Source of the DNA: Hydrogenobacter hydrogenophilus
Lineage (GTDB): Bacteria > Aquificota > Aquificia > Aquificales > Aquificaceae
Direction: 5' to 3'
Assembly: GCF_900215655.1 (NCBI RefSeq)
Contig: NZ_OBEN01000001.1
Coordinates: 124,001 to 188,000 of the forward strand
Length of the DNA stretch: 64,000 nt
This document shows positions 39,840 to 53,814 of this stretch, piece by piece. Numbering within the stretch: position 1 is the stretch's first letter; every line of letters begins with the position of its first letter. The translations under genes were made by a program, and so were the position numbers. Below the pieces are notes generated by a model that was given only the letters and a program-made list of their open reading frames with translations, ran no database searches and had not been told where the DNA came from.

Positions 39840-39989
39840 ATGAGCCTTTTAAACTTAGTAAAAATGCTTAAAGAAGAGTACATCCAGAACATGCGAAGGG
39901 AGCGTATTAGAAGAAAAGAGGGCTTAAAGTTAAGATTATACATACAGAACCTAAGAGCACCTAAGAACACCAAGAATATGGAAAATTGA
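39840..39989 (+). CDS. 49-residue basic protein upstream of selB
   Basis: MSLLNLVKMLKEEY starts the protein, which is mostly helical and Arg/Lys-rich (NMRRERIRRKEGLKLRLY). No family recognised. Support comes from a perfect -10 at leaderless distance and from its TGA overlapping the TTG start of selB. It might be an RNA- or ribosome-binding partner or a leader ORF coupling selB translation (inference). Confidence 0.55.
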   Translation: MSLLNLVKMLKEEYIQNMRRERIRRKEGLKLRLYIQNLRAPKNTKNMEN

Positions 39990-41716
39990 GATACATTACA
40001 TTAGCCACTGGGGGACATGTAGATCACGGCAAAACATCTCTGATAAAGGCGCTTACCAGTATAGACACAGACAGACTACCTGAAGAGAAACGGCGAGGTA
40101 TGAGCATAGATGTAGGTTTTGCCTTTATAGACCTACAAAAGATAAACACGAGAGTGGAGATCATAGATGTGCCAGGACACGAAAGGTTTCTAAAAAATGC
40201 CATAGCTGGGCTTTCCAGCGCACAAGGGCTCATTCTTGTTGTTGATGCCAACGAAGGTCTTATGCCACAAACCGTGGAACACATTAAGCTTGCAAAAAGC
40301 TTTGGGATAGAACATTGCGTAGTAGCCATTACCAAGATAGACAAAGCGGATCCAGAACTCATCAAGTTGGTAAAAGAAGATGTAGAGGAGTTTCTTAGGA
40401 AAGAGGATGTAAAGTGTTTTGGTTTTTACTTGGTGTCCTCTACTGAAGGTATCGGTCTTGAAGAGCTCAAAGAGGGGATAGCTCATTATGTAGAAAGCCT
40501 TCCAGAACCCCCAAAGGATGCCTTCTTTAGATTGAATGTTGACTCAGCTTTTCATATTAGAGGCTATGGGACTGTGTTAAGGGGGAGCTGTGTGTCTGGT
40601 ACAGTAAAGGAGGGAGACACATTAATTTTGGAACCTTTGGGGATACAAGCCAAAGTAAGAAATATACAGAACCACGGCAGTTTTGTCAAAGAAGGTAAGG
40701 CATGGCAGAGGCTTGCCATTAACCTTCCAGAAATAGACCATAAGTTAGTAGAAAGGGGTTTTTGGCTTGTAAAAAAGGAAGAACTGTTAAAAACTAAGAT
40801 AATTCTTATCTCTGCAGATGGTATAAAACCGGGAAAAGAGTATACCTTCTTTTTTGGCATGAGAGGAGTTTCTGGCATACCAAGGCACATACACGAAAAC
40901 ACATACATGGTAAGACTCTCCCAGCACGTGGTATGCGTAAGGGACGAAAGAGGAGCCATCCTTGACAGCTCAGGTAGGTTTGTGAGCGGATACAAACTGC
41001 TTCACCCTAATCCCAAAAGGCTTTCTAAAACTTTTATAAAAAAACATCTTCACCTTTTAGGAGAAGACCCAACAACCTACTATCTTCTTGAAGCTGGAGT
41101 AAAGGGAATAAGTATAAAAGAATTAAGCGCATCTTTTGGAAGAGCTATAAACCCACAGCATACCCAAAGTGTGCGCATAGGAGATGTTCTCTATCATCCT
41201 CATACACTCAAACAAGTAAAAGAAAGACTGCTTGGTCTTATCCAAAACTCTAAAGGTGTGGTAAAGCTTGCAGAAGTTGTGAGTAAGCTTAAGATAACTC
41301 AGGGGGTCCTAAGCTACATCCTAAAAGATTTGAGAGGCTATACGGTAGTTGAAGGCTACCTTTTGGACGAAAGGAGCGCTAAAATTGAAGAACTTGAAAG
41401 CTTCAAAAAGCTCATGGAATTTATGCAAGAGGGCATAAAGGAAGAGAAGGAACTTCTTCATTTTAAGGATATACTAACTGTTGCAGTAAGAAAGGGATAT
41501 ATTCACAGCTTAGGAGAGTTCCTTTACATAAGGGATGACATCTTTAAAAACTTTGTTGAAAAACTAAAAGAGTTAGGGGATACATTTAGCGTTCAGCAAG
41601 CCAAGGAGAAGTTGGGGCTTACAAGAAAGTACCTTATACCTCTTCTTGAGTACATGGATTTAAAGGGACTAACAAGAAGAGAAGGCAATGTGAGAAAGTT
41701 CACAAAAAAGGTGTAG
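39986..41716 (+). CDS. selB: Selenocysteine-specific elongation factor SelB
   Basis: 576 aa. It delivers Sec-tRNA to UGA codons marked by a SECIS element. The GTPase domain has GHVDHGKTSLIKALT, DVPGHERF and TKID; then EF-Tu-like barrels and C-terminal winged helices (about 400-576) that bind SECIS RNA. It starts at TTG 39986 inside the stop of the 49-residue gene. Its presence implies at least one selenoprotein, such as formate dehydrogenase, elsewhere in the genome. Confidence 0.93.
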   Translation: MRYITLATGGHVDHGKTSLIKALTSIDTDRLPEEKRRGMSIDVGFAFIDLQKINTRVEIIDVPGHERFLKNAIAGLSSAQGLILVVDANEGLMPQTVEHIKLAKSFGIEHCVVAITKIDKADPELIKLVKEDVEEFLRKEDVKCFGFYLVSSTEGIGLEELKEGIAHYVESLPEPPKDAFFRLNVDSAFHIRGYGTVLRGSCVSGTVKEGDTLILEPLGIQAKVRNIQNHGSFVKEGKAWQRLAINLPEIDHKLVERGFWLVKKEELLKTKIILISADGIKPGKEYTFFFGMRGVSGIPRHIHENTYMVRLSQHVVCVRDERGAILDSSGRFVSGYKLLHPNPKRLSKTFIKKHLHLLGEDPTTYYLLEAGVKGISIKELSASFGRAINPQHTQSVRIGDVLYHPHTLKQVKERLLGLIQNSKGVVKLAEVVSKLKITQGVLSYILKDLRGYTVVEGYLLDERSAKIEELESFKKLMEFMQEGIKEEKELLHFKDILTVAVRKGYIHSLGEFLYIRDDIFKNFVEKLKELGDTFSVQQAKEKLGLTRKYLIPLLEYMDLKGLTRREGNVRKFTKKV

Positions 41717-41719
41717 TTT

Positions 41720-42916
41720 ATGAAAGTGCTCGTGGTTTTAGGCACAAGACCCGAAGCTATAAAGCTTGCACCAGTAATTAATGCCCTAAAAGAAAGCGGT
41801 TTTGAGCTTAAAGTAGTTGCCACGGGACAACACGATGAGCTTCTCAGACATGTTCTTGAATTTTTCCGTATAGATGCAGACTTTCTTCACTGTATGAATC
41901 CAGACCTTATTGAAAATACAGCGTGTATGGCAGAGTCTTTGAAAGAAGTTTTACGAGCGTATAAACCCCACTGCGTGATAGTTCAAGGAGACACTCTTAG
42001 TTGCTACATGGGAGCTTATACGGCCTTTTTGAATAAAATACCCGTTTTGCATGTTGAGGCAGGTCTAAGAAGCCATGATAAGTTCTCCCCATTTCCGGAG
42101 GAGATGTTCAGAAAACTTACAGATGAGCTATCCGATGTGCTTTTTGCTCCTACAAAAAGGGCGGTGGAAAACCTTCTAAAAGAGGGCTTTCCAAAGGATC
42201 GTATAGTACTAACAGGCAATACAGTAGTAGATGCAGTACAGACTGCACTTGATCTCCTTGATAGAGATAAGATCAAACGCCAGCTACAAAAGCAGATAAA
42301 TAGGGAAATAGACGCTTTTGATGGCTTGGTTTTTATAACCTCTCACAGGAGGGAAAACATAGGAGAACCTATGAAAAATATAAGGGACGCAGTGCTTGAG
42401 CTTGCACAAAAGTTTCCCCATCTTCTCTTCCTTTGGTCTCTGCACAAAAACCCTCAAGTAAGAGAGAGCATTCTTGAAGGCTTTACACAATTACCAGATA
42501 ACTTGGTATTCTTAGAACCCCTCAGTTATCCACAAACCCTTTACCTATTGGAGAGGTCAAAAGTGATAATTACTGACTCAGGAGGAATTCAGGAGGAAGC
42601 ATGCACTTTGAGAAAACCTGTCCTCATAACAAGAACCGTTTCGGAAAGGCTTGAAGTGGTTGATGTAGGCTTGGGAAAAGTTGTAGGTACTGAAAAAGAG
42701 AAAATAGTAAAAGAGTTTGAAAAAACTTACAGTAATCTAGGTTATTACGAAAAGCTCTCTTTTGAAAATCCTTACGGAGATGGAAGGGCAAGCGAAAGGA
42801 TAAAGAACTTCTTCCTTTGCGATGAAGTAAAGAACTTTATGTTAAATTACAAGAAAGATTACAAGGGGGATCTGTATGAGTGTACTAAGGTTAACTCCAT
42901 TAGTGGTATTTATTAG
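41720..42916 (+). CDS. wecB: UDP-N-acetylglucosamine 2-epimerase
   Basis: 398 aa. It makes UDP-ManNAc from UDP-GlcNAc. Seen: LGTRPEAIKLAPV, HVEAGLRS, TSHRRENIGEPM and ITDSGGIQEEA. The last ~25 residues after the conserved end (GDGRASERIKNFF) are a non-conserved tail that overlaps the next gene by 41 bp. It heads the exopolysaccharide locus; UDP-GlcNAc would derive from glmS. Confidence 0.94.
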   Translation: MKVLVVLGTRPEAIKLAPVINALKESGFELKVVATGQHDELLRHVLEFFRIDADFLHCMNPDLIENTACMAESLKEVLRAYKPHCVIVQGDTLSCYMGAYTAFLNKIPVLHVEAGLRSHDKFSPFPEEMFRKLTDELSDVLFAPTKRAVENLLKEGFPKDRIVLTGNTVVDAVQTALDLLDRDKIKRQLQKQINREIDAFDGLVFITSHRRENIGEPMKNIRDAVLELAQKFPHLLFLWSLHKNPQVRESILEGFTQLPDNLVFLEPLSYPQTLYLLERSKVIITDSGGIQEEACTLRKPVLITRTVSERLEVVDVGLGKVVGTEKEKIVKEFEKTYSNLGYYEKLSFENPYGDGRASERIKNFFLCDEVKNFMLNYKKDYKGDLYECTKVNSISGIY

Positions 42917-43652
42917 TCTTAGCGTTTATGCCTTTGATTTCAGACTTGAAGCGGGAGGAAATTACGAATACCTCAGTCCAAATGCTACCTATGGCAGTTG
43001 GAAAAGTGGTTTTCTAAGACTTTACCACAGACCCTTTAGTCATTTTACTTACTTTTTAGAAGGTAGTGTTTTTAGTAGAAAACATGATGGTGATGCCTTA
43101 CTTGGTGTTTTTGGAGCTTATAAAGACTGGAGCGAATGGCTATACACATACAGTAGTCTCTCTTTTGGGAACAACAGTTCTTACCTTCCCAAGTATAGGT
43201 TAGACCATGAGTTTAACTTTAAGGTGGGTGCAAAAAGGAACATAGTTCCCTCTTTAGGCTTTACATACATCAAATACCACGATGTTCACAAAAACTACAT
43301 AGTTTATCCGGGCATTACCTATTACGGAAGAGGATTTGTGATAGCCTACAAGCACTTCATAAACAGAAGTTATCCGGGAAGCGTAAGTTCTTCGTCTGAC
43401 CTTTTAAGTCTAGGCATAGGTCAAGAGGGGAAAAGTTGGACTTATCTGGACCTTTCCTATGGCAAACAGGCATACCTTGCTACATACTTAGCTAGTCCAC
43501 AAGAGGTGAGACAAAAAGCCTTTTACATATCTCTTTCTCACAGACACTGGATAAAGAAAAGCTTAGGTTTATTCGGGAGTTTAAACTACTTGAAATTAAA
43601 AGACGGGTATGAAAAGTATGGCTTTCAAGCAGGCATATTCAAAGAGTTTTGA
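42876..43652 (+). CDS. YaiO-like outer-membrane beta-barrel protein
   Basis: 258 aa. A signal peptide (RLTPLVVFISLSVYA) is followed by repeated aromatic beta strands (AGGNYEYLS, WTYLDLSYGKQ, AFYISLSHRH) and a final Phe, as in outer-membrane barrels. It resembles the YaiO family. A GGGGGAT site precedes ATG 42876. In this setting it may be the polysaccharide exit pore or an accessory to it. Confidence 0.7.
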   Translation: MSVLRLTPLVVFISLSVYAFDFRLEAGGNYEYLSPNATYGSWKSGFLRLYHRPFSHFTYFLEGSVFSRKHDGDALLGVFGAYKDWSEWLYTYSSLSFGNNSSYLPKYRLDHEFNFKVGAKRNIVPSLGFTYIKYHDVHKNYIVYPGITYYGRGFVIAYKHFINRSYPGSVSSSSDLLSLGIGQEGKSWTYLDLSYGKQAYLATYLASPQEVRQKAFYISLSHRHWIKKSLGLFGSLNYLKLKDGYEKYGFQAGIFKEF

Positions 43653-44424
43653 GATAGAGAAACCAGTGGTTGGTTATGCGCGCTTTGGTAGGGTTTTAAA
43701 ATTCAACAAGTATCTTTTTCTACTTCAGCTTACGCTTCTGGTGTTCGTATTTGAATTTTTAGTGATTTTTTTTCTTGAAGATTACTTTAAGGTTTTATCT
43801 AACATTGCAAGAAGAATTTTGGAGGATAGCTATACTGGAAGTTATAAATTCTTAAACCTTACGCTTGAATATTCTGTATCACATGGAAGACTACCCACCC
43901 TGCAAGAATCTTTTACTTACCTTATTTTAAGCCTTTTATTCTTACTGTTTCTAATAAGAAAACTCAATCCACTGCCCAAGTATATTTCCGCATGGTTTAT
44001 ATACATAGCCTTTGTGTATTTTGTATCTTCTTGCTATTTTGTGCTCTTTTTAGACAGTTTTCCTTACACAGAAAGAGATTTTGCTACACTCTACATCCTC
44101 CAGCAGATGGGAGTTTTCATCTTTATACCCTTTGTTCTTGGTCTTTCTTTGTCCATATTCACTTTTAGCTGGCTAAATCTTCTGTTAAACGCAATTACTA
44201 TATCTCTTAGCCTTATGTATTCTTCCGTTTTTGGTGGTGTTAGGTATATAGTATTCGCTTACATTTTAAAGAATTTCTCTTATATACACATGCCAGCTAT
44301 GTTTTTTCTCTTTGGTCCTCTTTTGGATTTTATATACATAGTTTCTTTTTACTCCCTTTGTCTTTACATGACCTTAAGGCTTCTTCAAAAAAGGCGGGAG
44401 GCTTTTTACCAATGGGGGTTCTGA
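43609..44424 (+). CDS. Polytopic membrane protein of the polysaccharide locus
   Basis: 271 aa with about six hydrophobic segments (near residues 36-58, 105-120, 127-152, 170-190, 195-225, 240-258). No family recognised. It overlaps the barrel gene by 44 bp; a start further downstream, just before the first membrane segment, is possible. It may be a synthase partner or an acyl-transfer-type accessory (inference). Confidence 0.65.
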   Translation: MKSMAFKQAYSKSFEIEKPVVGYARFGRVLKFNKYLFLLQLTLLVFVFEFLVIFFLEDYFKVLSNIARRILEDSYTGSYKFLNLTLEYSVSHGRLPTLQESFTYLILSLLFLLFLIRKLNPLPKYISAWFIYIAFVYFVSSCYFVLFLDSFPYTERDFATLYILQQMGVFIFIPFVLGLSLSIFTFSWLNLLLNAITISLSLMYSSVFGGVRYIVFAYILKNFSYIHMPAMFFLFGPLLDFIYIVSFYSLCLYMTLRLLQKRREAFYQWGF

Positions 44425-45671
44425 TATTCCTTTTAAAAACATACATGGTTTTCCTAATGCTCTTTCTTTTTCTTTATCTTATAAGACACTACTTTTTTAC
44501 TTTAAACAGGGCTCTTGGCAAACAGAGGCTTTACTATCAAGATGTGTTGGACGAAGACCTACCTACTGTATCTGTTTTGGTTCCCATGCATAACGAAGAA
44601 AAGGTAGCCAGACATATACTGGACCTCCTTATTGCATCAGATTACCCAAAGGAAAAGTTAGAGATCATACCCATAAATGACCACTCAACAGATAAAACCA
44701 AAGAGATCCTTAATGAGTACGCTCAAAAGCATCCTTTTATAAAACCTTTACATAGGTATGGGGACTTACCACGAGGCAAACAGAACGGTTTAAATGACGC
44801 TCTAAAAATAGCAAAAGGGGAGGTAATAATAGTTTACGACGCAGATTACCTTCCACCCAAAGGACAAATTAGGATTTTAGCTACAGCTTTCAAAGATCCG
44901 CAGGTGGGTGCAGTCATGGGAAGAGTTGTTCCCATAAACGCCGGAAAGAACTTGCTTACGAGACTTCTTGATATGGAAAGGTCGGGTGGCTATCAGGTAG
45001 ACCAACAGGCAAGGTATAACTTAAACCTGATACCTCAATTTGGAGGCACAGTTGGTGGTTTTAGAAAGAACTTGGTCGTAAACTTAGGTGGATTTGATGC
45101 GAGGATTCTGGCTGAAGATACAGAATTAACCTATAAGCTTTATCTGAATGGCTATAAAGTTGCTTACGCGAACAGTGCAGAGTGTTATGAGGAAGCACCG
45201 GAAGACTGGAATGTAAGAGCAAGACAGTTAAGAAGGTGGTCAAGGGGACATAATCAGGTGATGTTTAAGTATCTTCTACCTACGCTCCTCTCTAAAAAAC
45301 TCAGCTTTTGGCAAAAGGTAGACGGTTTGTTGCTTCTCACCGTATATATGCAACCTTTTATGATCTTTTTGGGCTTGCTTGATTCTCTTTTACTCTTTTT
45401 CCTTGGTGAGATGGAAATAACAAGCTCTTATCTTTTTTTACTTTTCATATTTGCTCATAACTCCTTTGGGAACTTTGCTCCCTTCTTTGAGGTAGGCACT
45501 GCGCTGGTGCTTGATGGCGTAATGGAAAGGGTTTTTCTTTTGCCTTTGATGTTTTTTGAGTTCATCTTCAACATTATATATGCGTCTTTGGGTTTTATTG
45601 ATGCGCTGATAGACCTCATAATGAAAAGAACCGTAATTTGGCAGAAAACTGAGAGGTTTAGAAATGTCTGA
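44412..45671 (+). CDS. Processive family 2 glycosyltransferase
   Basis: 419 aa. One N-terminal and several C-terminal membrane helices surround a cytoplasmic GT2 domain. Expected residues: Asp90 (PINDHS), D143-A-D145, E235-D236 (LAEDTEL) and Q272-L-R-R-W276, the set seen in cellulose, hyaluronan and poly-GlcNAc (PgaC) synthases. It should polymerise and translocate a polysaccharide. ATG 44412 is preferred over a start 54 bp upstream because it begins right before the first helix. Confidence 0.88.
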   Translation: MGVLIFLLKTYMVFLMLFLFLYLIRHYFFTLNRALGKQRLYYQDVLDEDLPTVSVLVPMHNEEKVARHILDLLIASDYPKEKLEIIPINDHSTDKTKEILNEYAQKHPFIKPLHRYGDLPRGKQNGLNDALKIAKGEVIIVYDADYLPPKGQIRILATAFKDPQVGAVMGRVVPINAGKNLLTRLLDMERSGGYQVDQQARYNLNLIPQFGGTVGGFRKNLVVNLGGFDARILAEDTELTYKLYLNGYKVAYANSAECYEEAPEDWNVRARQLRRWSRGHNQVMFKYLLPTLLSKKLSFWQKVDGLLLLTVYMQPFMIFLGLLDSLLLFFLGEMEITSSYLFLLFIFAHNSFGNFAPFFEVGTALVLDGVMERVFLLPLMFFEFIFNIIYASLGFIDALIDLIMKRTVIWQKTERFRNV

Positions 45672-46596
45672 GGTATTTTTGTTAATCATAGCTTTTATCT
45701 TCCTTTTACTTTTACCTTTTTTGCCTTCTATCCTTGAGCTAATCTTCAAAAGAGACAAAGAACCCATCGCTATAGATCAACAGCGCACAAAGGAGCCCGA
45801 CTATTTTGGAAAAAGTTTTATCAAGCTTTTGACTACCGCTTTAAAAGACTTAAACATTCAAGAGATAGAAAAGCTTAAGCCTGTCTATCTAAAGCTCAAG
45901 TTAAACAGAGAAGAATGGGTAGGGTTTCTAAATGACGAAGGGTTAATAGAAAGCGTGGTAGATACGCCTGTGGTTTTTACCGAAGATACTGCCCTTTTGC
46001 AAAACCATATCTTCAAGAGGGAATTAGCGGTATTTGGAAACGCTGTATTCTTAAATACCTGCGCAGCAAGAAGTCTGTATGTGAAGGGTGATTGTTTTAT
46101 AGAAGCACCCGTTCGCATTGTGAGATGGGTGCATGTAGAAGGAAATCTTATCACAAAGTCTAAAGCAGACTTAGGTGTAAGTGTTTATGCTCTGGAAGTA
46201 AAAATAAGAAACAGAACAACCTTTAAAAGGGCTTATGCCAAAAAGATTGACACATCAGACGAGCCTCTTCTTGATAAAAAAAATATGCCGGAAGAAAGGA
46301 CTATAAACATAAAGGGAAGCCTTGGCGTAAAAGGTGGTATAACCATAGGTGGTAAAGAAAGGCCTGTTGTAGTAAATGGGGACCTTTTCTCTGATGGTGA
46401 TGTACAAATAGAAGGGAATGTATGGGTAAAAGGGAATGTGTTCAGTCAAAGTAGTATAACTCTTAAAAACGGGGTAGTTATAGGATTAGAAGGTAAAGTA
46501 AAATCAGTAGTAGCAAGAGGTAAAATATTCATAAAAGGACCATTTAGGATTTACGGATATCTACACAGTGAAAAGCTTGTGGAGGCAAGACCTTGA
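45664..46596 (+). CDS. Membrane-anchored beta-helix (bactofilin-like) protein
   Basis: 310 aa. One N-terminal membrane helix (VFLLIIAFIFLLLLPFLP), a linker, then short repeated beta turns: YVKGDCFIEAPVRIV, NIKGSLGVKGGITIGG, VVVNGDLFSDGDVQIEGNV and IFIKGPFRIYGYL. This is the pattern of bactofilins and similar polymer-forming right-handed helices. It may form a scaffold for the synthase. It overlaps genes on both sides by 4-8 bp. Confidence 0.65.
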   Translation: MSEVFLLIIAFIFLLLLPFLPSILELIFKRDKEPIAIDQQRTKEPDYFGKSFIKLLTTALKDLNIQEIEKLKPVYLKLKLNREEWVGFLNDEGLIESVVDTPVVFTEDTALLQNHIFKRELAVFGNAVFLNTCAARSLYVKGDCFIEAPVRIVRWVHVEGNLITKSKADLGVSVYALEVKIRNRTTFKRAYAKKIDTSDEPLLDKKNMPEERTINIKGSLGVKGGITIGGKERPVVVNGDLFSDGDVQIEGNVWVKGNVFSQSSITLKNGVVIGLEGKVKSVVARGKIFIKGPFRIYGYLHSEKLVEARP

Positions 46597-48395
46597 GAAA
46601 GGGATTTATTCTTTTTATTACACTCATACTCTTGTTTATCATCTTGAAAACACTATTACCCCTTTATTCTCTAAAATGGGACAAAGATATAGAAGTGCTG
46701 GTAGTTTATGGAAAAAAAGGTTATCAGGTGGACGCCTTTAAAAGCGCACTTGAAGAAGAGGGAGTGCCCCACAGGCTTGTAGATGTAAAAACCCTTTTAT
46801 CAGAAGATCCGCAAAGGTTAGCCAAGTACAAGCCTGCAATTATCATACCAGACGGGACCTTACAGTATGTAAATCCAAGCGCCATAAGGTGGTTTGAGGA
46901 TTATCTAACACACGGAGGGAATTTGTTTATTTCTCAAGATGCTGGTATAAAAAACTATGCAGGAGCATACTTAAGGTCCGCTATTTTTAGTCCTTTGCTG
47001 GGCATAAATTACATCCTTTATGAAAAATTAAGAGCAGGTAGCTACTCAAAAGGATATGTAAAGGTGCTGGATAGAGATCTTGAAATAACTCCGGGTAAAT
47101 TAGACAAAGAACAAAGACTTGTAACAGGATACATGTATAAAGAGCTAACTTACCCTTATGTCAAAACAGAAGACAGGAGCTTTGGTGGGAAAACTCTCGC
47201 AGTTGTGGTGGATAAAAAGGACGGTAGTCAATACAAAGCATTAGTTTGGAGCAAATATAGGCAAGGATACATTTTCTACTCTTCTCTACCCCTTGGACAT
47301 TTTAAGGCTTATTCAGATGACTTGTTTCTAAGGTCAAACTTGAGATACTTTCTTTTCAAACTGGCAGAAGTTCCACACCTTGTGAACACTCCCAAAGGTA
47401 AAGGAGGGTTCGTTATTAACTGGCACATAGATGCTAACCTTGACTGGACATCTATACCTATGATGATGGAAAAAGGTTATCTCAGAAAGGGTTTGGAGTA
47501 TTCTCTTCACATCACCGCAGGACCATTCAGGGACAAGCCGGGTGATAATCTTGGCTTTGATGCTTGTGGAAAAGGTGAAAGGTATGTGAAGATGCTTATG
47601 TCTTACGGTGTTATAGGTTCTCACGGTGGATGGGCTCACAACTGGTTTGCTTATGGAATACTTAGCGGAAAACTGGATCAAAAGGACATCTATGAGTACA
47701 TTGAAAAGAACAATCGCTGTCTTGAGTCCATAACGGGCTACAAGATAAGGGAATACTCCGCTCCTAACGGTGTTCATCCTCAGCCAGAGACCACTAAAGC
47801 TCTTGAAAAGCTCGGTTTTGTAGCTTACTACTATACGGGTGATAGTGGTTCATCTCCCAACAGGACTTTCATAAACGGTAAAATGGTATCCTCAAAGGTT
47901 ATAGCCTTTCCTATATCTCCTTACGAAGAATCCGCCTCTCTTTACGAGATGTACCAAAAGGGTATTAGCGAAGAGGAAGTTTATAGGTTTTTAAAGTCTC
48001 TTGCAGATTTTTCTGCAGAAACAAAACAGATAAGGCTTTTCTACTCTCATCCTTACGACATTCCCCTGTATCCTTCTGCTGTTCTCAAAGCTATAGATTA
48101 CTGGCAACAAAAGGAAAGGGAAGGTCTATTGGAAATACACTCCATGAGCTACTTTGCGGACTTCCTTTTGAGATTTTTAAAAACGGAGTATAGTTTTAGG
48201 AAAAAGGGTGATGAATTAGTTGTGCGACTCAAAAACCCGGAAGGATTAAAAGACATAGCTATTGCTGTACCGCGCTATTACGGAAAGGTTTTAAGTTTTC
48301 CCAAAGAAGCTGTCTTTATTTCTCAGGATGAACACTTCTACTACTTTTATCTTCAAAAAGACGAAGAACTTGACCTTTCTTTCAAATTCCATTAA
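46593..48395 (+). CDS. Membrane-anchored polysaccharide deacetylase-like protein
   Basis: 600 aa. An N-terminal anchor (residues ~5-25), a Rossmann/GATase1-like domain (about 33-260: VLVVYGKKGYQVDAFKSAL, GNLFISQDAG), then a CE4-like domain. Candidate metal and catalytic residues: H278-x-D280 (NWHIDAN), H344 and H349 (SHGGWAHNW, spacing one longer than the usual HxxxH), YSAPNG (388-393) for the RPPYG motif, and YSHPYD near 455. It probably N-deacetylates the polymer in the periplasm. Confidence 0.72.
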   Translation: MRKGFILFITLILLFIILKTLLPLYSLKWDKDIEVLVVYGKKGYQVDAFKSALEEEGVPHRLVDVKTLLSEDPQRLAKYKPAIIIPDGTLQYVNPSAIRWFEDYLTHGGNLFISQDAGIKNYAGAYLRSAIFSPLLGINYILYEKLRAGSYSKGYVKVLDRDLEITPGKLDKEQRLVTGYMYKELTYPYVKTEDRSFGGKTLAVVVDKKDGSQYKALVWSKYRQGYIFYSSLPLGHFKAYSDDLFLRSNLRYFLFKLAEVPHLVNTPKGKGGFVINWHIDANLDWTSIPMMMEKGYLRKGLEYSLHITAGPFRDKPGDNLGFDACGKGERYVKMLMSYGVIGSHGGWAHNWFAYGILSGKLDQKDIYEYIEKNNRCLESITGYKIREYSAPNGVHPQPETTKALEKLGFVAYYYTGDSGSSPNRTFINGKMVSSKVIAFPISPYEESASLYEMYQKGISEEEVYRFLKSLADFSAETKQIRLFYSHPYDIPLYPSAVLKAIDYWQQKEREGLLEIHSMSYFADFLLRFLKTEYSFRKKGDELVVRLKNPEGLKDIAIAVPRYYGKVLSFPKEAVFISQDEHFYYFYLQKDEELDLSFKFH

Positions 48396-48404
48396 CATAA
48401 GGTT

Positions 48405-49202
48405 ATGAAACTCCTCTTGATAGCTTTGCTTTTTATAAAACTTTCCTTTTCACATTCTGTCCTTGACATCATCAACAATTCGTATGTAGTGCCTTACTTT
48501 TTAAACCTTACCGCTATCAACCTACTTCCATCTGACCCAGAAAAAGTCAAAAGCTACATAAGATGGTATTTGGATCATCTTAACTATCCAGATAAATACG
48601 GTTTGACAGGGACTATTTATGATTACTACATAACAGAAAACTCAGAGGTCCCTTTGTACACGTACGATTCTGCAGATTCTTACTCTGCTACTTTTCTTTT
48701 CCTTACTTACCTTTACGCAGAAAGAACTAATGACTACCAACCCGTAAGAGAAAATCTGCGAAAGTTAAAAGATGTAGCTTATGTGATAGCTTATCTGCAA
48801 GATACGGACGGACTTATAAAAGCTCTACCTTATGTGAACCTCAAGTATCTTGTGGATAACATAGAAGATGTATGCGGACTTAGGGCTTTTTCATTACTGC
48901 TGTGGAAGTTGAAAGACCCTGATTGGCACTATTACTTCACACTCTCTCATAATGTAGAAAGCTCTGTGATAAAAAATTTAATGTGGCGCGGCAGCGTAGC
49001 ATGGGCTAAACTTGATGATAAGCTCTTTATTGCAGGCAATTCCGTAGTGTATCCAGATCTTTATGCCAAGGCGGTTTTTTACAGCTTTTTAGGTAGGACT
49101 GTTCCTGATGAGTGGGCAAGTAGGTTTGACTATTTTCAGAGAACGGTGATGCGCATAGTAAAAAACAGATGTTTCAGCATCCGTAGTTCAGCTTACTTCT
49201 AA
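48405..49202 (+). CDS. Secreted alpha/alpha-toroid glycosidase-like protein, probably C-terminally truncated
   Basis: 265 aa. Signal peptide LLLIALLFIKLSFS. The body is helical, with DSADSYSATFLFLTYLY, a pattern like six-hairpin glycosidases. No catalytic pair is securely assigned. The end (RIVKNRCFSIRSSAYF) lies exactly where the hydrogenase remnants begin and overlaps them by 15 bp, so the original 3' part may be lost. Confidence 0.5.
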   Translation: MKLLLIALLFIKLSFSHSVLDIINNSYVVPYFLNLTAINLLPSDPEKVKSYIRWYLDHLNYPDKYGLTGTIYDYYITENSEVPLYTYDSADSYSATFLFLTYLYAERTNDYQPVRENLRKLKDVAYVIAYLQDTDGLIKALPYVNLKYLVDNIEDVCGLRAFSLLLWKLKDPDWHYYFTLSHNVESSVIKNLMWRGSVAWAKLDDKLFIAGNSVVYPDLYAKAVFYSFLGRTVPDEWASRFDYFQRTVMRIVKNRCFSIRSSAYF

Positions 49203-50613
49203 AACTGCATTCCAAACTTTTTGAACAATTCCCTTAGGAAGTAGAAAAGTTAAGATCACAAGTACCATTAGAATAAACGCTGGCAAAAGCAACATAAAGG
49301 GGTGTACTTTCTCTTCTTTCTTATCACCTTCACCAAAAAGCATAGGAAGAACTTGATAAAAAATTCCTGCAAATGCCAAAGAAAGAGAGAGAAGCACCAA
49401 CACGCCCAATGATGGACTCTTCTGCACTATGCCCACAACCGTATACATTTTACTTAAAAAAGTAGAAAAGGGGGGAAAACCAGATATGCTTGCCAAACCA
49501 AAAGTAAGAATAAAAGCTGTCCCTTTCATACTTTTGTATAAGCCCTTTACCTCGTCCATTTTCCTTTTATGCAAAAGGGAAAGCACATTTCCAGCAGCCA
49601 TAAAAAGAACACCCTTACTGAGAGCATGAAACAGTATATGAAGCAAAGCACCAAAAGCAGCAAAACCACCCACACTCAAGCCTAAAGAGATAAAGCCTAT
49701 ATTTTCCATTGAGGAATAGGCAAAAAGTCTTTTATACTCACTCTGTTTAAGCATAATAAGACTTGAAAGCAGTAATGTAAGCAAGCCAAAGAAGAGGAGA
49801 AAATCGCTTGCATAATCTATACCTGCCTTTCTATTTATCTGATAGAACCTAACTACACCCAAAAGGGCTGTGTTTAGAAGAACACCGGATAGCAAAGCGC
49901 TTATTGGGCTAGGTGCTTGCGAGTGAGCGTCAGGTAGCCAGTTGTGCATGGGTGCTAAACCAGCCTTTGTACCAAAACCTACCAGTGCCAATAAGAAGGA
50001 CAGGAACAGCAATTTTTTATCAAGCTTTTCCGCAACCATAAGAATGTCAACAAAGGAAAGGGAACGCAAGCTTTCTCCGTATACTCCAACTGTTGCGTAA
50101 TACATGATAACGATTGCAAAAAGACCAATAGTTATACCCGTAGAACACATAATTACATACTTCCAGGAAGCTTCATAGGATTCCTTGCTCCTGTAAAAGG
50201 CTATAAGTAAGGCGGTGGCTAAAGTGGTAGCTTCAAGACCCACCCAGTAAATACCAATGTTGTTTGAAAGTATGGATACAAACATGCTGAGAATAAAGGC
50301 ATTTTTCCAGAAATAGTAATATCTAAAACGTCTCTTTGGTACACCATGACTTATCTCGGTTCTAATGTATCCAAAAGAATAAAGAGAAACAAAAAGTTCA
50401 AGGCAGGAAACAGTTAGTAGCAAAAGAGTTCAGAGGGTCAGTAAAGAGCAACCCATATAAATGTGGTGAGTAATTACCAATGTAAAAAATGTAACCTCCT
50501 GCAACAAATATACATGCGGATATAAGAACTTGGATGTAGGACATCTTATAGACATCAAGAAGAAGGGAAAGCAGCATACCCAAACATGACAATAAAAAGG
50601 GTAAATAAATCAT
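49188..50613 (-). pseudogene. HyfF-like membrane subunit, frameshifted
   Basis: Proton-pumping antiporter-like subunit of a hydrogenase-4/formate-hydrogenlyase-type complex. The N-terminal 67 residues (LLFTDPLNSFA) and the remaining 411 (SCLELFVSLYSFGYI; GLAPMHNWLPDAHSQAPSP) are in different frames. Removing one base in the A4 run at 50422-50425 (T4 on the coding strand) would restore a protein of 474 aa, the usual size. It overlaps the HyfE-like gene by ATGA. Confidence 0.8.
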
Positions 50614-51255
50614 TCCTTTAACACCTCCAATGCCTCAACTTTTATGTCTTCAAACTTTCTTTTTATGCGAAGTAGAAGCACAGAAGATATGAGTATGCTT
50701 ATGAATATGTCAAAGAGCACACCAAGCTCTACTATAAGTGGCATGCCAGTGGCAACACTGTTTGCTGCAAGAAATATGGCATTTTCCATTATAAGGAGAC
50801 CAAGTATCTGAGAAAAAAGCATTTTTCTTATAACCAGAAGCAAGCCCCCTATCAACAATGTTGAAAGAGACGACACAAAAACAAACCTTCCAAAGATGAA
50901 GTGAAGCTCTGTAAATTTTGTGGAAAGGGCAGAAGATGCCAACACGAAAAATCCAGACAGCACAACTGCAGAAGGTATACTTACAACCATATCTATCTCC
51001 CTCTCTTTACCTATTTTTTTTTAAAACTACAAATAACAACACAGGAATAATAAATCCTTTGAAAATAAGCGTTGCTAAAAAAGAAAGATAGAGATGTAAA
51101 ATGTTTGAATTTATAGCAACTATAAGTATATAAAAGGAAAGCATCCAAGATTGAAGCATGTTTAGGCTTACCGCAAACTTGAGGAAAGGAGAAGCCACAT
51201 TCAAAACAGCAGTCACCAGCACCATAAGTGCCAAAAAGCCCGCCAACTGTTCCAT
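50610..51255 (-). pseudogene. HyfE-like membrane subunit, frameshifted at A9
   Basis: The two halves, EQLAGFLALMVLVTAVLNV to VLLFVVLKK and MVVSIPSAVVLSGFF to the end, are in different frames across a run of nine A (51014-51022, coding strand A). With eight A the reading passes through KKIGKEREID into the second half, giving 214 aa, very near the 216 aa I recall for E. coli HyfE. Slippage on A9 might still yield full-length protein. Confidence 0.78.
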
Positions 51256-51256
51256 T

Positions 51257-52204
51257 CTATACCTCCATGGATAGCACGAGGGATACAAGTGATAGAACAA
51301 ATGCTACCGATAGCAGATTGGGTAACCTGAAAAGCCTCATTTTTGCATTCGCTGATTCTACAAAAGCAATCAAGGAGCTTAGAATGAGCATTTTCAAAAG
51401 ATAAAAGAGGAACGCTGGAATAAAGTAAAGAGCCGTCTGTGCCATATAAGGCATAGTCAATAGGACAATAAAACTCATGAATATAGTAAGCTTTAATTGG
51501 GAAGCATATTCAAAAAGGAGAAGATGAGTACCGCTTGCTTCTAATATGTTTGCCTCGTGTATCATGGTAAGCTCTAAATGGGTTTCTGGATTGTCAAAAG
51601 GTATGCGAGCGTTTTCTGCAAGTGTGAGTACAAAAAGACTTATAATAAGAAGAAAAAGTATGCTTATAGAGAAGTGTCCATGCCCAACAGTTAGCGACTT
51701 TACTTCCTCGCCAAGCCTTAAAAAAGCTACACTTATGTTCCACTCCTTAAAGTAAAGGCATACAGAGAAAAGCAGTAAAAGAAAAGCTGGTTCTGAAAGG
51801 CTACTGATGAACCATTCTCTGCTTGAACCCAATCCACCAAAAGAGCAACCCTGATCAAGAGCATAAAGAGTCATGAAAAATATGGAAAGGGATAACAGAT
51901 AGGCAAGTAGCATCGGATTTGAAGAGGTTATAAGAGGTTTAGCGTAAAATAAGGGAAGCGTAAAAACCAAAAGAAGGTTCGGTACAAGATACATAAAGGG
52001 GGCAATATGAGATATGATGGTAGCATCCTTTGAAAGTACTGTCTCCTTCTTAAACAGTTTGTGAAAGTTTCTGTAATACTGGAAAATACTTATACCCTTT
52101 TGTCCTCTTATCCTTTGTTTTAGTTTATGTATAAAACCAGCGAAGAATGGGGCAAGCAAAAGCACCGCTACACCTTCCAAAACAGATAAAGCCAACTCCA
52201 TCAT
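51257..52204 (-). CDS. HyfC/HycD-like membrane subunit
   Basis: 315 aa, apparently intact. NuoH-like quinone-loop family member of membrane-bound hydrogenases: IRGQKGISIFQYYRNFHKLF, ENARIPFDNPETHLELTMIHEA. About eight membrane helices. The start overlaps the HyfB-like stop (ATGA) and the stop lies 1 bp before the HyfE-like start, so operon structure is preserved although neighbours are broken. Confidence 0.85.
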   Translation of the reverse strand: MMELALSVLEGVAVLLLAPFFAGFIHKLKQRIRGQKGISIFQYYRNFHKLFKKETVLSKDATIISHIAPFMYLVPNLLLVFTLPLFYAKPLITSSNPMLLAYLLSLSIFFMTLYALDQGCSFGGLGSSREWFISSLSEPAFLLLLFSVCLYFKEWNISVAFLRLGEEVKSLTVGHGHFSISILFLLIISLFVLTLAENARIPFDNPETHLELTMIHEANILEASGTHLLLFEYASQLKLTIFMSFIVLLTMPYMAQTALYFIPAFLFYLLKMLILSSLIAFVESANAKMRLFRLPNLLSVAFVLSLVSLVLSMEV

Positions 52205-53424
52205 TTTTCTCCTATTACAAGCATGTAAAACAGGAAGCAAAACAGCAAAGTCAAAAATATGTAGCCTATGTATAGATTTATGTTTCCTGTTTGAATAAGA
52301 CTCCTAACATAGCTTGACACTTTCAAAACACTAATTGCCAAAGGTTTGTAAATCCACTTTTCAAAAACATCCATCACTTCTTCTTTGTAAAACAGGCTCT
52401 TTCTGAAGTATTTTTTAACATCCTCTTCAAAACTCACTTCCGAAAGTGATGAATAGAACATGGAAAACAACCTTCTTATGCTGTAGGTTTGAGAAAGCAC
52501 CGTTGCTTGTGCAGAGGAGTTTTCTTCATCAAGACCACACATCCATGTTTCGTACACCCTAACCTTTTTAGGTCTGAATAAGTAAAAGACTATGAGTAAA
52601 ATAAACAGCAAGAGTAATGAGAGGAATGTGGGCATATAGGACAGACCGTTAAGGTCAAGGGGGTAGCTGGAAGGGAATAATCCAGAAAGGATGTAAGGGT
52701 AAGTGCCAATGAGTATGGAGCATACAATAGGTATTCCTATAGCAAAAAGTTCAAAGTGGTTGGGTTTGTCCAATATATTTGCACCTCTGGACTTACCTAA
52801 AAAACAAGTCCAAGGAACTTAACAAAAGTTGCACCTATAAAAACACCGGAAAGTGCAAAAAGGGCAAGAATAAAGACAAAAACATAGCTCATTATATGAC
52901 CTTTTAGATAAAGCGAGAGAAAGAGCGCCTTGTAGAGCATTAACTCACTTAAAAACATATTGGAAGGCGGAAAGGCAGACATGTATAGAGAAGATATAAG
53001 CATAAAGAAAAATAATATGGGGCTTGCTTTATACAGTCCACCTAACCTGTTCATGCTGTACTCGTGGGTCATCTTTACCAAAAGCCCGGCACCCATAAAA
53101 AGAGAGCTTTTTAAAAGAGAGTGGTTTAAAAGATGCAAAAGCACAAAAGAAATAGCCAGAGAATAAACATGAGGAAGTCCCTCCAGCATAGCAAAGTATG
53201 CTACCCCCATACCAATTACTATCGATCCCATATTCTCTATACTTGAATAGGCAAGAAATCTTTTAACATCTCTATCAAGCAGGGCATGAAGGGCACCGTA
53301 AAAAAGGGAAAGGCCCCCTAATGACACAAGCAGAAGGCTTATTAAGATGTGAGGCTGTGAAGAAAATTCAAAAAGGAATCTGAATATCCCATAAATTGCC
53401 ACATTGAGCATAACGCCTGACATA
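52201..53424 (-). pseudogene. HyfB-like subunit, N-terminally deleted and frameshifted
   Basis: The piece begins inside the conserved MSGVM motif (near 53423); the first ~230 residues expected for HyfB are missing. It runs to FVKFLGLVF-stop at 52797 and then continues in another frame as FLGKSRGANILDKPNHFEL. Adding one base to the A6 run 52799-52804 (coding T) joins them. The junction upstream abuts a hydrogenase fragment on the opposite strand. Confidence 0.78.
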
Positions 53425-53425
53425 T

Positions 53426-53713
53426 CCAAAACATGCAGATGTCTTACTGATAACAGGATGCGTTACAAGAAACATGCTTGTGCCTATGTTAAAAGCCTAC
53501 GATAACGCACCAAATCCAAAGTTTGTGTTAACAGTGGGAGACTGTGCCGGTGAATGCCCCTACTTCAGGGACTCTTATGCGGTAGAAGGTCCTGTTTCAA
53601 AGCATTTGCCAGTTCACTTACATGTTCCCGGCTGTCCACCAGAACCTGCGCAGATATTAGAAGGGCTTATAAAATTAATGCAGGCTGTAAAAACTGCTTT
53701 TCCAAAGATTTGA
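53426..53713 (+). pseudogene. 3' fragment of a HyfI/NuoB-like hydrogenase small subunit
   Basis: The open frame from 53426 reads PKHADVLLITGCVTRNMLVP, then VLTVGDCAGECPYF and HVPGCPPEPAQILEGL, the C-terminal half of NuoB-like small subunits including two cluster cysteines. The N-terminal half with the CC motif is absent. It is on the plus strand, facing the truncated HyfB-like piece on the minus strand across a 2-bp junction. Confidence 0.8.
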
Positions 53714-53730
53714 TTATTTTCAGAAAGATG

Positions 53731-53814
53731 TGCCGGAGGCGGGAGTCGAACCCGCACGCCCTTTCGGGCGGGGGATTTTGAATCCCCTGCGTCTGCCAGT
53801 TCCGCCACTCCGGC
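53731..53814 (-). tRNA. tRNA-Leu (CAA)
   Basis: 84 nt. Acceptor stem GCCGGAG pairs with CTCCGGC; the anticodon stem GGGGA/TCCCC encloses TTCAAAA with anticodon CAA (53778-53780); a long variable arm (GCCCG AAAG GGGC-type) and GGTTCGACTCC T arm are present. CCA is not encoded. It reads UUG codons. TATAAT (53824-53829, minus) lies 9 bp before the 5' end. Confidence 0.96.

Follow-up and report, generated by a model that had tools for sequence, protein, structure and literature searches.

In a 64,000-nucleotide window of the Hydrogenobacter hydrogenophilus genome (contig NZ_OBEN01000001.1, positions 124,001 to 188,000 of the forward strand), seven plus-strand genes at window positions 41720-49202 appear to encode a synthase-dependent system for exopolysaccharide, one of a so far undescribed class found in diderm bacteria. 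Its likely task is to synthesise a sugar polymer destined for the cell surface or the biofilm, to de-acetylate and trim it, and to export it; to this reading, with all the steps that are proposed below, we assign a probability of roughly 0.72.

In gene order, the locus comprises wecB (41720..42916), coding for a non-hydrolysing UDP-N-acetylglucosamine (UDP-GlcNAc) 2-epimerase, the maker of UDP-N-acetylmannosamine (UDP-ManNAc); a YaiO-family outer-membrane beta-barrel (42876..43652; TIGR04390, PF19413) with a signal peptide, which is a putative exporter; a polytopic inner-membrane protein termed MP (43609..44424), which belongs to no known family and is the putative partner of the synthase; the processive polysaccharide synthase GT2 (44358..45671), recognized by PF13641 and PF00535; BH (45664..46596), a putative scaffold with a single N-terminal membrane helix followed by a bactofilin-like beta-helix (PF04519); DAC (46593..48395), a putative membrane-anchored three-domain polysaccharide de-N-acetylase resembling Agd3 in its predicted model, fold match and motifs; and GHl (48405..49202), a periplasmic alpha/alpha-toroid glycosidase-like protein and putative depolymerase, so assigned from its model and fold matches. 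A preliminary description of this DNA had spoken of seven overlapping plus-strand genes; the seven open reading frames are present and the overlaps between most neighbours range from a few bases to about 70, except that GHl is separated from DAC by 9 bases. Its individual calls were largely borne out. WecB scores 366 bits against the equivalog model TIGR00236 (cut-off 210) and the YaiO-like barrel 180.8 bits against TIGR04390 (cut-off 32), with the match covering residues 23-258 of 258. The motifs named for GT2 are invariant across 23 homologues (D108, DxD at 161-163, ED at 253-254, and Q290/R293/W294 of QLRRW). The bactofilin-like beta-helix is recovered by PF04519 in 21 of the 31 BH homologues at E <=0.01 (best 3.6e-9), the window BH itself reaching 23.8 bits, under the Pfam cut-off of 27.9, and the GHl model does resemble alpha/alpha-toroid glycosidases. 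The combination of synthase, deacetylase, glycosidase and barrel, in which the preliminary description had seen the logic of exopolysaccharide production, is likewise supported by gene content, conservation and folds, from which we infer the polymer and its export.

The seven genes are not chance neighbours. Their order recurs identically in Aquificota of two families, with single proteins being 28-91% identical, and most of the set is found in many phyla. When 84,980 species genomes were scanned with the DAC alignment, 40 loci emerged in about ten diderm phyla, and the gene-neighbourhood survey that had been proposed as a check shows the locus neighbours kept together across them. The labels include Aquificota, Nitrospirota, Zixibacteria, Acidobacteriota, Firestonebacteria, Negativicutes (Sporomusa, Phascolarctobacterium), Campylobacterota (Sulfurovum), Cloacimonadota, Aminicenantes, Eremiobacterota and others; as far as is known, these carrier groups have an outer membrane. 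Since the scan relied on two short peptide patterns, this spread is a lower bound, and since many of the DAC-bearing records are draft metagenome assemblies, individual phylum labels may be wrong. When the gene content of the loci was mapped with profiles of the seven window proteins, MP, GT2 and BH were found to accompany DAC in 26/26 loci having more than 4 kb upstream of DAC; among the 13 loci that are well flanked on both sides, 12 contain YaiO, 11 GHl and 6 WecB. Recurrent flanking genes were considered as further members and rejected, as they mostly track host phylogeny (e.g., Persephonella housekeeping genes). The distribution is patchy and the system spreads by transfer: DAC is present in 13/136 Aquificota genomes, Phascolarctobacterium faecium is the sole carrier among 59 genomes of its family, and one Nitrospirota GT2 nests among Aquificaceae in the tree. 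No DAC relative was found in phage records. Broken or duplicated loci in some draft genomes, and a second DAC in an Acidaminococcales draft genome (L049) that has lost its active-site residues, might suggest a cluster in decay or genes that adjoin by accident and do not work together. This is contradicted by the content and order kept across phyla and by strongly conserved catalytic residues, which leave it a negligible likelihood.

GT2, with its invariant motifs and membrane helices, has the make-up of an inner-membrane processive synthase. Its true start is probably the ATG at 44412 rather than the TTG at 44358, because the homologues begin there. The nearest known family is PgaC: GT2 reaches 137 bits against TIGR03937 (PgaC_IcaA), far under the cut-off of 422, and the GT2 family profile matches Escherichia coli PgaC at 167 bits, while 63 bits are obtained against TIGR03030 (BcsA; cut-off 699). 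In the GT2 tree, PgaC, BcsA, YaiP and NfrB lie on long branches outside the GT2 group; the tree program flags long rows as unsurely placed, and the tree is used for this separation alone. For MP, hydropathy indicates about 5-7 membrane helices, and no Pfam family was matched across 27 homologues, apart from two isolated matches at chance level.

The proximity to PgaC could mean that the locus is a divergent poly-N-acetylglucosamine (PNAG) system of the PgaABCD/IcaADBC type, in which GT2 would correspond to PgaC, MP to PgaD, DAC together with GHl to PgaB and YaiO to PgaA, and which would produce partly de-N-acetylated poly-GlcNAc, with WecB serving elsewhere. The two share a processive GT2, a small membrane partner, a periplasmic de-N-acetylase, a glycosidase activity and an outer-membrane barrel, and the lack of WecB at many loci would fit as well. 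However, the GT2 score is well under the PgaC cut-off, and profiles of all seven families, including those of MP, DAC and GHl, hit PgaC but no other Pga protein of E. coli (PgaA, PgaB or PgaD). DAC and GHl are separate proteins with folds unlike PgaB, i.e., an Agd3-like enzyme with a toroid partner in place of CE4 plus GH153; the YaiO barrel has no TPR domain; MP with its 5-7 helices stands instead of PgaD; WecB and the bactofilin-like BH are extra; and wecB tracks the locus in Aquificota. We therefore regard a PNAG system in disguise as unlikely and favour a separate exopolysaccharide class.

DAC had been termed GATase-like and CE4-like in the preliminary description. By sequence, the CE4 relationship is weak (23.6 bits against PF01522, cut-off 23.1), and the call resolves to the three-domain plan of Agd3. 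Agd3 is a fungal exopolysaccharide de-N-acetylase, the founding member of the families CE18 and CBM87, and consists of an alpha/beta/alpha domain, a carbohydrate-esterase (CE) domain of the (beta/alpha)7 type and a C-terminal beta-sandwich (PMC7229062). The predicted DAC model (pLDDT 94.4) contains an N-terminal alpha/beta, a CE-type and a C-terminal beta domain, repeating the CE18 architecture in its secondary structure, and its best Foldseek match in the PDB is Agd3 (6nwz, E 2.3e-16). A TM-score of ~0.4 and a root-mean-square deviation of 10.6 Å show that the domains of the modelled DAC are either strongly diverged from those of Agd3 or differently placed. Sequence searches of the PDB with DAC and GHl gave nothing useful, so that fold comparison was required; even a deep DAC profile returned no Agd3 match among PDB sequences up to E 10, and no Pfam or NCBIfam model names DAC, MP or GHl. 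Two other leads were discarded: a match of DAC to the peroxiredoxin 5ykj was short, spurious and gone with a deeper profile, and weak GH42M matches fit the Rossmann-like N-terminal domain, to which the GH42 and GH164 structure matches are also due.

The conserved motifs of DAC (residue numbers of the protein from the window) are HxD at 278-280, SHGGWAHNW at 343-351, SAPxG at 389-393, NRTF at 423-426 and YSHPYD at 484-489. Across 34 sequences, the conserved residues are H278 and D280, H344 and H349 (HxxxxH), P391, R424, H486 and D489. The HxD echoes that of PelA (CE21), whose His has been proposed to coordinate the base (PMC12022489), and the catalytic-acid candidate His486 is followed by Asp489 at +3, the same spacing as in the H488/D491 pair of PelADA (CE26; PMC13254593). 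The Asp-Asp pair and the HxxxH of CE4 and CE18 are not kept in the family, which has a single-Asp HxD and HxxxxH instead; judged by these motifs, DAC is probably a further carbohydrate-esterase family near CE4, CE18, CE21 and CE26.

Several loci carry variants of this gene. HIE/TDGGW is found in L044 and L045, and in both Cupriavidus DACs the position of Asp280, conserved elsewhere, is taken by Cys (HLC/HFC for HID; L077:8740-10680, L080:6706-8532), possibly a changed metal ligand. Tandem pairs of DAC genes occur in Firestonebacteria, Aminicenantes and Cloacimonadales (L030, L033, L035, L037, L032, L050), with the motifs kept in both copies of the Firestonebacteria pairs. The second DAC of the Acidaminococcales genome (L049:9692-11548) reads RFF for HID, LGGMANN for HGGWAHN and MVNEQ for YSHPY, as if it had turned into a binding or structural subunit upon loss of its catalytic residues.

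GHl is predicted as a short alpha/alpha toroid (pLDDT 90.9); its best structure matches, GH116, GH105 and UGL, are marginal (E ~3e-4), and no sequence family match was obtained. Several homologues carry lipoprotein-like signals at the N-terminus, and the proteobacterial versions are longer (~335-355 amino acids). By their folds and N-terminal anchors or signals, both DAC and GHl are predicted to be periplasmic modifying enzymes. On the other side of the membrane, the beta-helix of BH probably faces the cytoplasm, given that a Cloacimonadota homologue (L047:2074-4515, 813 amino acids in one open reading frame) begins with a signal peptide and SPOR domain(s), which are followed by the membrane helix and then by the beta-helix; this fusion possibly links peptidoglycan to the scaffold.

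Such a fusion, with SPOR domains that bind peptidoglycan, could also speak for a periplasmic or envelope-anchored glycan (e.g., peptidoglycan- or lipid-linked), for which YaiO would serve in anchoring or display and BH would tie synthesis to cell shape. Bactofilins are generally known for roles in cell shape and the cell wall, and no TPR exporter is encoded by the seven genes. Against this stand the combination, in one operon, of an outer-membrane barrel with a deacetylase and a glycosidase-like protein, which is the pattern of a secreted polymer, and the patchy, transfer-borne spread, which fits an accessory surface trait better than a core step of envelope building. An envelope-anchored product is, hence, quite improbable to us, and the preferred product is a secreted exopolysaccharide.

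The wecB gene is single-copy in the H. hydrogenophilus genome, and its product has D91, E113, E127/E128 and H209, invariant in six homologues, which we take to be the equivalents of known active-site residues. Within Aquificota, wecB is found above the cut-off in 12/13 DAC-bearing genomes versus 13/123 others (Fisher p = 1.2e-9, a descriptive value that ignores shared ancestry). Among the other DAC-bearing records it is above the cut-off in 26/30, a figure of little weight given how widespread wecB is among bacteria, so that the argument relies on the Aquificota contrast. Since WecB is linked to the locus in some lineages only, a ManNAc polymer is put forward as a hypothesis: we give somewhat less than an even chance to a polymer made wholly or partly of ManNAc, and the product would otherwise be a GlcNAc polymer.

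From the gene content, conservation, family and fold assignments and conserved catalytic motifs observed here, we infer the reactions, export route, scaffold role and sugar as follows. In lineages with a linked wecB, the precursors would include UDP-ManNAc made by WecB, and GT2 together with MP would polymerise a UDP-activated N-acetylhexosamine and pass the chain over the inner membrane. On the cytoplasmic side of that membrane, BH would build up a bactofilin-like scaffold by which the synthase is positioned or clustered. Once in the periplasm, the chain would lose part of its N-acetyl groups to the inner-membrane-anchored DAC and become cationic; the toroid protein GHl would trim or clear chains, and the YaiO barrel would let the polymer out across the outer membrane. 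Several points weigh against this picture. The system is known here from genes and predicted models alone, and we know of no demonstration that a YaiO barrel exports a glycan. Despite the YaiO barrel, Pfam and NCBIfam scans revealed no TPR domain in any of the seven proteins, and the seven genes, unlike textbook systems, contain neither a TPR protein nor a c-di-GMP domain. The activity of DAC could differ, because the paired Asp of CE4 and CE18 is missing and HxxxxH replaces HxxxH. Finally, roughly every second well-flanked locus is devoid of WecB, and wecB is absent altogether from two or three draft genomes that carry DAC, so that UDP-ManNAc may be dispensable.

Gram-negative synthase-dependent exopolysaccharide systems have been defined by four features, namely a processive synthase in the inner membrane, a copolymerase or regulatory domain binding cyclic di-GMP (c-di-GMP), modifying enzymes in the periplasm and an outer-membrane pore coupled to a periplasmic TPR domain (PMC7112194). 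A synthase and predicted modifying enzymes are found here and the TPR-coupled pore is not; the seven proteins gave neither PilZ nor GGDEF matches in a Pfam scan, although MP or BH could bind c-di-GMP unseen. A GGDEF gene adjoins one Firestonebacteria locus. Because the four-part definition applies in part, the locus is not placed in any named system; failing PNAG membership and lacking the hallmarks of cellulose and Pel, it would, on its sequences, be a variant outside them. With Pel it shares the three-domain deacetylase logic and the HxD and H..D (+3) arrangements, but its synthase is a GT2 and not the GT4 PelF, and Pfam and NCBIfam scans found no PelF, PelG, PelD, PelA or PelB/C among the seven proteins. 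Cellulose and alginate systems likewise combine a membrane synthase with a periplasmic alpha/alpha-toroid enzyme (BcsZ, AlgL) and a barrel; in contrast to these, the seven genes have no PilZ domain, no BcsC counterpart and no apparent one of BcsB, and include a putative deacetylase. None of the seven family profiles matches BcsC or BcsZ, that of GHl included.

The fungal galactosaminogalactan cluster also includes an epimerase that supplies precursor. This cluster and the bacterial CE18 operons resemble the window locus in having a three-domain deacetylase, a multi-span membrane protein and a glycosidase (PMC7229062). In bacterial agd3 operons GH114 is present, joined in Gram-negatives by outer-membrane components resembling those of Pel (PMC7229062), whereas the window locus has GT2, YaiO, BH and WecB, and no sequence link between DAC and Agd3 is detectable.

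In E. coli K-12, the yaiO-yaiX-yaiP-yaiS genes (L057:5070-9617) combine a YaiO barrel, a GT2, an acyltransferase gene and a putative deacetylase. YaiP, however, falls outside the GT2 group on a long branch, and wecB, a bactofilin and an Agd3-like protein are absent; the locus, whose yaiX is interrupted by IS2, looks like a functionally similar yet separate exopolysaccharide locus. A closer relative is an Escherichia operon of the order bactofilin-wecB-YaiO-membrane protein-acyltransferase (PF01757)-355-aa toroid protein-GT2 (L079:3347-10200; L081:9669-16580; L082:8669-15580), which has the same chassis with an acyltransferase for DAC. It is carried on a conjugative IncI1/B/O plasmid of E. fergusonii (pRHB18-C04_2) and in 3/5,426 E. 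coli genomes (chromosomal in AH19B041, NCTC8623 and A41), and adjoins fimbrial and conjugation-type genes. Because its GT2s nest inside the window GT2 family, next to those of Cupriavidus, an acyltransferase appears, from the sequences, to have replaced the deacetylase in the Escherichia lineage. The direct comparison of GHl with the Escherichia 355-aa protein is weak and convincing only via the Cupriavidus intermediate (GHl versus the Cupriavidus protein, hhalign E 1.4e-11; Cupriavidus versus the Escherichia protein, BLASTP E ~1e-44). The enterobacterial membrane protein is equated with MP by position, profile comparison giving no tie (only 15 bits in one search). In Cupriavidus sp. P-10, the plasmid pMTS1 bears two divergent sets, WecB included. 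Taken in its most specific form—a mannosamine-containing cationic polymer, a dedicated bactofilin-like scaffold, TPR-free export and a deacetylase/acyltransferase module swappable in Escherichia, in about ten diderm phyla—the proposal is a tentative one, which we hold to be less probable than its opposite.

The genes bordering the window locus are not part of the unit, since other loci have different flanks. Upstream, the selenocysteine elongation factor gene selB (39986-41716) ends 3 bases ahead of the wecB start, and the operon may therefore be co-transcribed with selB in the H. hydrogenophilus genome. Downstream, in the stretch 49188-53814, hydrogenase-4-like genes lie between GHl and a tRNA-Leu(CAA) gene (53730-53814, minus strand), 4.5 kb beyond GHl. 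In L009, a close relative, GHl extends at its 3' end into the tRNA-Leu(CAA) gene (L009:7315-7398). The locus seems to be part of a variable island bordering a tRNA gene.

The preliminary description had stated that this protein set matches no known system, and database models and the open-access literature indeed yield no description of the seven-gene system; subscription papers and preprints, where an earlier one is possible, lie outside that search. A 2020 survey counts five synthase-dependent exopolysaccharides, and its main text does not mention YaiO or bactofilin (PMC7112194). A further architecture, occurring in deep-branching thermophiles as well as in candidate phyla, Negativicutes of the gut, Cupriavidus and a few Escherichia, would broaden the picture of biofilm polymers, and cultured carriers such as Sporomusa malonica DSM 5090 and Phascolarctobacterium faecium DSM 14760 make the system testable. 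If the proposal is true, bactofilin-like proteins would gain a possible role in polysaccharide synthesis, the YaiO barrel would gain a candidate exporter function, and DAC would probably add a new carbohydrate-esterase family.

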